In this document: piece after piece, positions 37,647 through 39,654 of the stretch
Layout: each line of letters opens with the position of its first letter
How positions within the stretch are numbered: position 1 is the stretch's first letter
From: Shinella lacus
GTDB taxonomy: Bacteria; Pseudomonadota; Alphaproteobacteria; Rhizobiales; Rhizobiaceae
Length of the DNA: 64,000 nucleotides
Reading direction: 5' to 3'
Assembly: GCF_010994755.1 (NCBI RefSeq)
Contig: NZ_WHSB02000005.1
Location: 1-64,000, forward strand
The notes under the pieces: model-generated
What the model saw: the letters and a program-made list of their open reading frames with translations, nothing else
Database searches by the model: none
Told to the model about the DNA's origin: nothing
Program-made: the position numbers and the translations under genes

Positions 37647-39032
37647 CTAGCGGAGCTTGGATTTCAGCGAAGCATCCGGATAGCAGGTCGGCGCGAGGCC
37701 GGCCTTGGCTTGCCAGTCGCCCAGCGAGCGGCGCGTCTTGTAGCCCGGCAGCCCATCGACCTTGCCGACATCATAGCCCTTGGCGACCAGCGCCTTCTGC
37801 ATGGCCAGCACATCCGAGCGCAGCATCTTGCCGACATCGCCCCATTCGCCGCGGAACGGGCCGCTGCCATAGGCGATGCGATCGGCGAGATTGCCGATGA
37901 AGAGGGCGTAGAGGTCGGAGTTGTTATATTCCTTCAGCACGTAGAAATTCGGCGTGACGATGAATTCCGGTCCATGCGTGCCGGCCGGCACCAGCATCAT
38001 GCCGGAGGCCTTCGCCTCGCCGGAGGAAAAGCCCTTGCCGGAAACGCGCGTGATGCCGGTCGATGCCCAGGCCGAGATCGGCTTTTCAAGGTCCGGCCCC
38101 TCCTGCGCGCAGGAAACACCGGCCGGAATCGTGACCTCGTAGCCCCAGCCGCGACCGGCCTGCCAGCCCTTCTTGGCAAGATAGTTGGCGATCGACGCCA
38201 GGCTGTCCGGCACCGAACCCCAGATGTCGCGCACGCCATCGCCATCGAAATCGACGGCATATTGCAGGAAGCTCGTCGGCATGAACTGCGGCTGGCCGAG
38301 CGCGCCGGCCCAGGAGCCCTTCAACTGCGCCACCGTCCGGTCGCCGCCATCGACGATGTGGAGGGCTGCGATCAGCTCCTTGCGGAACATGTCCTTGCGT
38401 GTCGACATGAAGGCTTTCGTCGCGAGCACCTCTACCGCCGAATAGGGGATCTTCGCGCTGCCGAAGCCGGATTCGCGGCCCCAGATCGCGACGACGATCT
38501 CGCCCGGAACGCCGAAGCGCTGCTCGACCTTGCGCAGCGTCGCGGCATGGGTTTTCGCAAGGCTGCTGCCCCGCCCCGCCAGCCCTTGCAGGCGCTTTTC
38601 GGAGAAATAGGCGCCGGGCGAGGAGAATTCCGCCTGGCTCTGCGACTGTTCCTTCCTGGGCTTCGAGCCCGGCGGCACGAGATCGGGCAGGTCCCAATTG
38701 AGCGTCACACCCTCCATCGCCGCGCGAAAGGTCTTTTCGCTGACGCCGGTTTTTTGCGCGGCCGGCCAGAGGTCCTTGTCGATCCAGGCCCGGAACATCT
38801 TTTCGACCTCGCCCTTGGAGGCGGCGTGGGCGGGAAGGGCAGCGGCGAAGAGCGCCAGTGCAAGTATGGGTGCGAAGCGGGCGCGAATACCCCCCTCTGC
38901 CCTGCCGGGCATCTCCCCCTCAAGGGGGGAGATCGAATCGTGGCACCGCCTTGCCCCCAGCCGATCTCCCCCCTTGAGGGGGAGATGCCCGGCAGGGCAG
39001 AGGGGGGTGAGCCGCAGGAGCCAACCTATCAT
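37647..39032 (-). CDS. lytic murein transglycosylase (MltB type) with RIME-encoded N-terminus
   Basis: A 461-residue secreted enzyme that cleaves peptidoglycan glycan strands. The catalytic Glu is in AIWGRESGFGSAKIPYSAVE; SWAGALGQPQFMPTSFLQYA and FDGDGVRDIWGSVPDSLASI follow; a C-terminal peptidoglycan-binding domain is at about 395-455. The signal-peptide core FAPILALALFAAALPAHA starts only at about residue 53. Residues about 10-48 are encoded by a RIME palindrome (38890-39007). ATG 39032 has AAGGG well spaced; the only other ATG before the signal core, at 38912, lies inside the RIME with its purine run too close. Either way the RIME is translated. Confidence 0.88.
   Translation of the reverse strand: MIGWLLRLTPLCPAGHLPLKGGDRLGARRCHDSISPLEGEMPGRAEGGIRARFAPILALALFAAALPAHAASKGEVEKMFRAWIDKDLWPAAQKTGVSEKTFRAAMEGVTLNWDLPDLVPPGSKPRKEQSQSQAEFSSPGAYFSEKRLQGLAGRGSSLAKTHAATLRKVEQRFGVPGEIVVAIWGRESGFGSAKIPYSAVEVLATKAFMSTRKDMFRKELIAALHIVDGGDRTVAQLKGSWAGALGQPQFMPTSFLQYAVDFDGDGVRDIWGSVPDSLASIANYLAKKGWQAGRGWGYEVTIPAGVSCAQEGPDLEKPISAWASTGITRVSGKGFSSGEAKASGMMLVPAGTHGPEFIVTPNFYVLKEYNNSDLYALFIGNLADRIAYGSGPFRGEWGDVGKMLRSDVLAMQKALVAKGYDVGKVDGLPGYKTRRSLGDWQAKAGLAPTCYPDASLKSKLR
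38890..39007. repeat. RIME-type palindromic element inside a gene's 5' end
   Basis: A perfect 46-base inverted repeat (38890-38935 and 38962-39007) encloses a 26-base spacer, 118 bases in all. The arms contain the CTGCCGGGCATCTCCCCCT motif of the Rhizobium intergenic mosaic elements. Read on the minus strand it has no stop codon and continues in frame into the transglycosylase gene. Confidence 0.9.
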
Positions 39033-39048
39033 AATCGAAACCCTTCCC

Positions 39049-39654
39049 TCAGATCGCCGTGCGGGCGCGCAAAGCGGCCGTCAATGTTCCTTCGTCGAGA
39101 TAATCGAGCTCGCCGCCGACCGGCACGCCGTGTGCGAGCCGTGTAATCTTCACGCCGAGGCCGGAGAGCTGGTCGGTGATATAATGGGCCGTCGTCTGGC
39201 CCTCGACGGTCGCGTTGACCGCGATGATCAGCTCCCGCACGCCGCCCTTCGCCACGCGGTCGACGAGGCCGCGGATGTTGAGGTCGTCGGGGCCGATGCC
39301 GTCGAGCGGCGAAAGCGTGCCGCCGAGCACATGGTAGGCGGCGTTCATCGCCGCGGCGCGCTCCAGCGCCCAGAGATCGGAGACGTCCTCGACGACGATG
39401 ATGACCGTGTGGTCGCGGCGCACGTCCGTGCAGACGGTGCAGGGATCGCTGGTATCGACATTGCCGCAGCACGAGCAGATGCGCACCTTGCGATGCGCCT
39501 CGCCCATCGCGTCGGCGAGCGGCCCAAGCAGCTGGTCCTTCTTCTTGACGAGATGCAGCGCCGCGCGGCGCGCCGAACGCGGCCCGAGACCCGGCACTTT
39601 CGCCAGGAGCTGGATCAGTTTTTCGATTTCGGGGCCGGTGACTCGTTTTGCCAT
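39049..39654 (-). CDS. recR: recombination protein RecR
   Basis: A 201-residue zinc-binding DNA repair protein that loads RecA with RecF/RecO. A helix-hairpin-helix ([19 protein letters not shown]) is followed by a four-Cys zinc finger (C60, C63, C72, C75) and a Toprim domain ([15 protein letters not shown]). It lies 16 bases upstream of the transglycosylase start at 39032. The common dnaX-ybaB-recR order is broken here by a LysE and a MOSC gene. Confidence 0.97.

Follow-up and report, generated by a model that had tools for sequence, protein, structure and literature searches.

RIMEs, the Rhizobium-specific intergenic mosaic elements (Osteras et al. 1995, as cited in PMC2573895), are described as intergenic in the accessible text of PMC2573895, as the preliminary description of this locus had also stated. 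In the window analysed here, a 64,000-nucleotide stretch of Shinella lacus (positions 1 to 64,000 of contig NZ_WHSB02000005.1), a RIME-type palindrome lies in frame inside a gene for a lytic transglycosylase (LT), which raises the question of whether the repeat is translated and, if so, what selection makes of the peptide that it encodes.

We consider it highly probable that this RIME belongs to the LT reading frame and is translated from ATG 39032 through the palindrome into the enzyme, with selection keeping the frame only and not the peptide. The element, a MITE-like palindromic repeat, follows codon 8 and precedes the hydrophobic core of the signal peptide; with a length divisible by three and no stops in the LT frame, it should let translation from ATG 39032 pass through the palindrome into the enzyme.

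The palindrome and its host gene

The LT gene of the window encodes a 461-residue product, RIME-coded segment included, whose domain matches exceed the curated cut-offs for SLT_2 (PF13406, 321.2 bits against 24.3) and for the MltB_2 subfamily (TIGR02283, 352.8 bits against 248.45), placing it among the MltB/SltB-type lytic transglycosylases; a PG_binding_1 domain was also matched. The nearest solved structures are SltB3 and SltB2 of P. aeruginosa, and an AlphaFold model built on 20 sequences, modest in quality with a mean pLDDT of 67.6, reproduces the catalytic fold of SltB3, with a signal helix at residues 54-63 and a pLDDT below 50 over residues 1-51. Cleavage of the signal peptide is expected after AHA. 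An LT orthologue is present in all 21 Shinella genomes; over the mature enzyme, that of one genome is identical to the named locus L031 (Shinella sp. SUS2), which assigns the window to Shinella. Upstream regions were read for 130 orthologues in total, comprising the 21 from Shinella, 108 of the 337 other matches in the family (mostly the most similar) and one from another family. The preceding ORF, which we take by sequence recognition to be recR, has its stop codon separated from the LT start by a 16-nt gap, and recR lies no more than 700 nt upstream of LT in 119 of the 130 orthologues.

A repeat search at 38889-39008 returned arms of 57 nt at 93%, the perfect portion being 47 bp in each. The palindrome first reported is thus real, the sizes given for it (118 bp, with 46-bp perfect arms) being 1-2 bases short, and it is in frame with LT as claimed, the ORF remaining open through the whole element. 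The element strand is predicted to form a single long hairpin (-145 kcal/mol, z = -9.7), and none of 200 shuffled sequences was equally stable. The suggestion that this hairpin covers the start did not hold, because the long stem begins 24 nt past the A of ATG 39032, within the first codons; around the Shine-Dalgarno (SD) site and the AUG there are only weak extra stems, the AUG sitting in the loop of a 6-bp hairpin made mostly of G-U pairs. None of the matches to eukaryotic microRNA families of Rfam over the palindrome reached the gathering score, and we regard them as artefacts of the hairpin.

Table 1. Features of the LT locus in the window.
Feature	Position	Strand	Basis or remark
recR (recombination protein RecR), presumed	39049..39654	(-)	ORF; directly upstream of the LT gene
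Lytic transglycosylase (LT) gene, MltB_2 / SLT_2 + PG_binding_1	37647..39032	(-)	ORF and domain matches
First 8 codons, MIGWLLRL	39009..39032	(-)	Before the element, SD site ahead; RIME-free L117 and L130 start with homologous codons
RIME-type palindrome, 120 bp = 40 codons, residues 9-48	38889..39008	(-)	Open in the LT frame
First arm, 47 bp	38962..39008	(-)	Perfect part of the inverted repeat
Loop, 26 nt	38936..38961	(-)	Stem-based extraction
Second arm, 47 bp	38889..38935	(-)	Perfect part of the inverted repeat
In-frame ATG in second arm, codon 41, possible secondary start	38910..38912	(-)	Sequence and SD energy
Remaining signal peptide (IRARFAPILALALFAAALPAHA)	38823..38888	(-)	Translation and AlphaFold helix

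The element has the character of a RIME in being a large palindrome with many dispersed copies. The window genome (G000; 7.04 Mb in 53 contigs) holds at least 36 further full or partial copies, at least 22 of them full length, and two other Shinella genomes (G008 and G013) together hold at least 73 distinct full copies, a count that leaves out six loci with no recognisable full copy (L347-L350, L391 and L398). Among plasmid records, 182 matched the element at 1203 places, including 73 from Rhizobium, 68 from Sinorhizobium and 11 from Shinella, and the S. meliloti records among those listed carry 8-18 places each; the best 30 of the 182 matches show 82.7-95.8% identity and come from Sinorhizobium, Rhizobium and Shinella. 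The name RIME, given in the preliminary description, fits this host range and repeat character (PMC2573895, accessible text), though no record labelled RIME was found among the matches; what differs from the published elements is the position in frame inside genes. For the best 30 of the 182, 23 lie in annotated records, and in none of these does a gene listed in the incomplete gene table lie under the match. Other copies were not flagged as inside a gene in 34 of 36 cases in G000 and in 69 of 73 in G008 and G013, by a test that overlooks N-terminal insertions (the 69 include two LT copies) as well as copies lying at the ends of contigs.

No direct target-site duplications were detected, flanks identical over at least 5 bases occurring in none of 95 copies. 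The flanks of these copies favour G at position -5 (64/95) and C at +5 (66/95), with a preference for a pyrimidine before the element and a purine after it. RIME copies also lie within about 270 bases of the ends of G000 contigs C11, C13, C20, C29 and C33, so that the repeat probably breaks the assembly.

The site of translation initiation

The preliminary description placed the start inside or upstream of the element, reasoning that no ATG, GTG or TTG occurs between the element and the signal-peptide core and that ATG 39032 has the best ribosome site, and both observations were borne out. From 38889 to the core none of these codons occurs in frame, while the rare codons ATT, ATA and CTG do; anti-SD pairing, computed with what we take to be the anti-SD tail sequence, amounts to -8.4 kcal/mol at ATG 39032 against -6.5 kcal/mol at ATG 38912, and the upstream SD is stronger than that of the internal ATG in 8/8 RIME-bearing Shinella.

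Relatives lacking the repeat, whose comparison had been proposed as a check, agree with this placement. The RIME-free L117 and L130 start at a homologous ATG upstream of the insertion point, beginning ATGCTTCGACGCCTGCGGCGCTTC and ATGCTTCGATGGCTGCGGCGGTTC, and these starts are homologous to the eight pre-palindrome codons of L125 (ATGCTTGGATGGCTGCGGCGTTTC). Because the homologous codons of L117 and L130 precede the insertion point, the start lies upstream of the element, and this placement applies whether the two never had the element or lost it. Neither of the contrary patterns that had been foreseen was encountered, namely a non-standard start past the element or relatives starting inside an identical, repeat-free region. 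The other 11 RIME-free Shinella have diverged signal peptides or N-termini in which homology is not visible by eye. The nearest tree neighbour of the window LT, L112, is one of these 11 and has a different N-terminus, so recombination may have moved the 5' region of LT.

These results bear on the possibility that the annotation is an artefact, the element being intergenic and its frame open as a consequence of high G+C. The window genome has many open frames, and the accessible text of a review on REP elements cautions that REPs assigned to NH2-terminal coding regions may mostly be extragenic and misannotated (PMC3733652), but the lack of a usual start codon between the element and the signal-peptide core and the homologous upstream start of L117 and L130 make such an artefact very improbable here.

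Alternatively, the RIME itself could supply the working start at ATG 38912 in its second arm (GAGGGGGAGATG), yielding a normal signal peptide of 30 residues, with the frame upstream open by chance. This ATG is in frame, follows an SD-like GAGGGGG and would give a signal peptide of ordinary length, but its SD, the weaker one in all eight Shinella, is buried in the 47-bp hairpin, and the codons upstream of the element remain coding-like in this genus. With its usable SD, ATG 38912 is a possible second start in the window species; the comparison of orthologues speaks further to whether it could be the working one.

Frame, peptide and turnover across LT orthologues

The palindrome is present in 8 of the 21 Shinella LT orthologues and absent from the other 13, and across the 130 orthologues the LT slot holds 27 complete two-armed RIMEs, some of them degenerate. 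As many as 26 of these 27 are open into the enzyme from an upstream ATG, GTG or TTG (TTG only in L143, GTG and TTG only in L184), the single exception being L151, which has lost the frame and whose close relatives L032 and L065 are in frame. Excluded before counting were L160 (a run of N in the element), L232 (half an element), L159 (contig end) and the remnants L134, L138, L155 and L195, and loci from a search seeded partly with the RIME-coded peptide were kept out.

The control consisted of 87 full RIMEs not flagged as genic, taken from three Shinella genomes (20 from G000 and 67 from G008 and G013) and read in both orientations. Of the resulting 174 orientations, 66 are a whole number of codons long, and 43 of these also keep the LT frame open (25%, or 24% averaged over frames), the rate being 17/38 for copies of 115-125 bp, 25/128 for those of 150-165 bp, and 9/40, 11/64 and 23/70 by genome. 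Since the rate depends on length class, the five 120-bp Shinella cases, each with a chance of about 45% of an open frame, weigh less; for longer RIMEs this chance is about 20%. All control copies are from Shinella, and the slot RIMEs are related by descent and therefore not 27 independent draws. If five in-frame events were independent, their joint chance would be about 0.001 at the overall rate and 0.02 at the 120-bp rate.

Chance openness is thus not rare in the 120-bp class (17/38 orientations), which leaves room for a start at ATG 38912, but overall it predicts about 25% in frame, as against the 26 of 27 found; the same excess over the control argues against misannotation. In the Rhizobium clade, 10/10 aligned LT sequences, 8 of them from the search seeded partly with the RIME-coded peptide, run in frame from a conserved MRRV start. 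Their second arm is read in two frames, SPLVGEMS... or LPPCGGDV..., and in the 5/10 with the latter the ATG of the arm is out of frame or absent and cannot be the start. We consider it improbable that ATG 38912 is the working start, and chance openness, like misannotation, is an unlikely explanation of the locus. Translation of the palindrome from ATG 39032 very probably takes place, judging from sequence comparison.

Whether the encoded peptide matters was approached through the differences at codon positions 1/2/3 among 24 aligned elements from three clades, each selected for its open LT frame. That this frame is stop-free in the 24 carries no weight, the sequences having been cut from an open stretch; their other two frames contain 44 stops (Shinella 9, Sinorhizobium-like clade 4, Rhizobium clade 31). 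Inside the element the differences number 127/235/145 (Shinella), 233/225/244 (Sinorhizobium-like) and 934/681/878 (Rhizobium), with no coding pattern, and downstream of it 183/90/263, 60/50/130 and 295/144/455 in the same order, a coding pattern. Upstream, the Shinella codons are coding-like, with differences mostly at positions 1 and 3 (74/33/91); the Sinorhizobium-like clade shows little third-position excess (62/60/71) and the Rhizobium clade few differences (9/29/33). These patterns indicate a freely drifting peptide in a retained frame, the RIME-coded sequence showing no visible amino-acid constraint.

The slot has also changed state repeatedly. Stem-based extraction of the loops of 36 slot RIMEs, 11 of which came from the search seeded partly with the RIME-coded peptide, gave 13 loop clusters, an upper estimate of the number of separate events because loops diverge. 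On a tree of 159 proteins, 26 changes of RIME label are needed, 14 of them forced by starred branches, with gains and losses not separated; these counts are approximate, since L036, L046, L047, L048 and L051 are labelled empty despite inserts or parts, L149 and L172 are called REP2 by a loose pattern, and L232 is half an element. In the close relatives L114 and L118, which have near-identical flanking codons, the loop is the same but lies in opposite orientations, in frame in each, an inversion that changes the encoded N-terminal peptide without loss of the frame.

The slot also receives other sequences. An unrelated-looking repeat of the CGTCATTCCTGTG... type lies in frame in L171, L175, L179 and L218, the last being uninformative because its start codon comes after the element. 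Mosaics with a CCCTCCCCAACCC-type beginning and a partly RIME-arm-like end are open in frame in L213, L220, L221 and L224, and short in-frame stretches resembling remnants occur in L155, L134, L138 and L195.

Such repeated changes of state, together with the intake of another repeat family, might suggest that the RIME-coded N-terminus has been co-opted with a function, for example altered targeting or hairpin-tuned expression, and ribosomes could be slowed by the 47-bp hairpin that they meet in the first codons. We nevertheless find co-option unlikely, given a segment that is predicted to be disordered, a peptide without visible constraint, a loop that can flip and the absence of the element from 13 of the 21 Shinella.

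Most likely, the LT element is selfish DNA, tolerated in a stretch of the preprotein that export removes. Non-autonomous palindromes would land widely, those in genes surviving where length, frame and protein tolerance permit; at LT, the insert would add 40 residues to the n-region of the signal peptide, which should be removed with it and leave the mature enzyme unchanged, so that selection would act on the frame alone and not on the encoded peptide. We infer the translation, the export and cleavage, and the neutrality of the insert from sequence.

RIMEs in other genes and coding palindromes elsewhere

The preliminary description drew a parallel with the protein-coding palindromes of Rickettsia, which the LT copies support and copies in further genes extend. 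Two of the 36 other copies in G000 lie inside genes with coding signal on both sides, cobN (TIGR02257 and PF02514) and a GT4 glycosyltransferase gene (PF00534), and 4 of the 73 distinct full copies in G008 and G013 were flagged as genic, at cobN site A in both genomes, at a second cobN site and in a gene for an MDR-type dehydrogenase (ADH_N and ADH_zinc_N_2 domains).

At cobN site A (L270-L294), the 21 Shinella divide into 6 with a full in-frame RIME, 1 with an in-frame remnant, 1 with a frame-breaking remnant (L277) and 13 empty sites; a solved CobN (9uk9) is without the insert, and its alignment is interrupted at residues 744-746. Site B (L413-L434) holds an in-frame RIME in 8 of the 21 (L416 degenerate), another in-frame insert in 1 and nothing in 12. 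For the dehydrogenase, 12 loci read out of 19 matching genomes (L342, L401-L412) comprise 2 in frame, 1 with the frame lost (L403) and 9 empty. The six genomes with a GT4 match (L242, L295-L303) include 2 with a full in-frame RIME, placed between the N-terminal half and the Glycos_transf_1 domain, 1 with a shorter in-frame palindrome remnant and 3 with none; the GT4 alignments of several genomes (G004, G018, G007, G017 and G010) hold one or two stops, and the stretch around the insert is open. One genome, G011, has lost the frame at the RIME sites of both cobN (L277) and the dehydrogenase (L403), probably through either recent inactivation or an assembly error.

Summed over the five Shinella sites, 26/27 two-armed RIMEs are in frame (LT 8/8, CobN A 6/6, CobN B 8/8, GT4 2/2, MDR 2/3), and LT, CobN and GT4 each read the first arm in a different frame, all three being open. 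The CobN, GT4 and MDR cases are internal to their genes and cannot be start misannotations, a further point against an artefact. The same repeat thus occurs in frame in several unrelated genes (LT, CobN at two sites, GT4 and MDR) with empty orthologous sites, as in the functional class typified by the Rickettsia palindromic elements (RPEs; Ogata et al. 2000, 2002, as cited in PMC2229807 and PMC10969869), and with in-frame copies in several genes RIMEs behave like these protein-coding palindromes.

According to the accessible text of PMC2229807, in-frame RPE fusions were found in 19 reading frames; guanylate kinase, an RPE-bearing product that was tested, is active with a changed substrate affinity. 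The two families resemble each other as palindromes of about 105-150 bp with both intergenic copies and in-frame fusions in unrelated conserved genes, tolerated by the host protein (PMC2229807 and PMC10969869, accessible texts). Unlike RPEs, RIMEs have free-living, high-G+C Rhizobiaceae as hosts and reuse one gene slot many times, in the n-region of a signal peptide; the likeness is one of functional class.

ERIC, RU, Correia and REP elements also occur in ORFs, and ERIC, RU-1, RU-2, RU-3, the Correia 107-bp element and the GTAG/CGTC REPs share with RIMEs the form of small non-autonomous repeats with open frames fused to genes (accessible texts of PMC2229807 and PMC3733652). They are here taken as unrelated families, and in those texts we found no ERIC, RU, Correia or REP case of one N-terminal slot reused across a bacterial family. 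The coding palindromes of nematomorph mitochondria (PMC6649704) are likewise long perfect inverted repeats within coding sequence, but there both arms code for conserved residues and the repeats seem to be under active maintenance, whereas the RIME-coded peptide is unconstrained and the family dispersed. The terms 'RIME' and 'rhizob-' are absent from the main texts, as accessible, of the palindrome reviews PMC2229807 and PMC10969869, and no report of in-frame RIMEs was found among titles and abstract openings of the open-licence literature, though prior print elsewhere is possible.

For annotation, a repeat filter built on the assumption that RIMEs are intergenic could give real genes a wrong start or break them up, cobN being an example. 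More broadly, we offer as a tentative proposal, on balance somewhat doubtful, that RIMEs are a protein-coding palindrome family in free-living Rhizobiaceae that repeatedly rewrites proteins at tolerant sites (internal loops, linkers and n-regions), with the LT signal peptide as a family-wide landing pad and inversion of the loop between long arms swapping the N-terminus while the frame is kept. The best-known protein-coding palindromes are those of Rickettsia and Wolbachia, which are obligate intracellular bacteria, and the occurrence of such palindromes in culturable soil bacteria with large genomes would provide a tractable system. With empty and filled orthologue pairs in one genus and a slot filled many times, the neutrality of the inserts, the reading by ribosomes of a 47-bp hairpin in the first codons and the choice of insertion site become testable.
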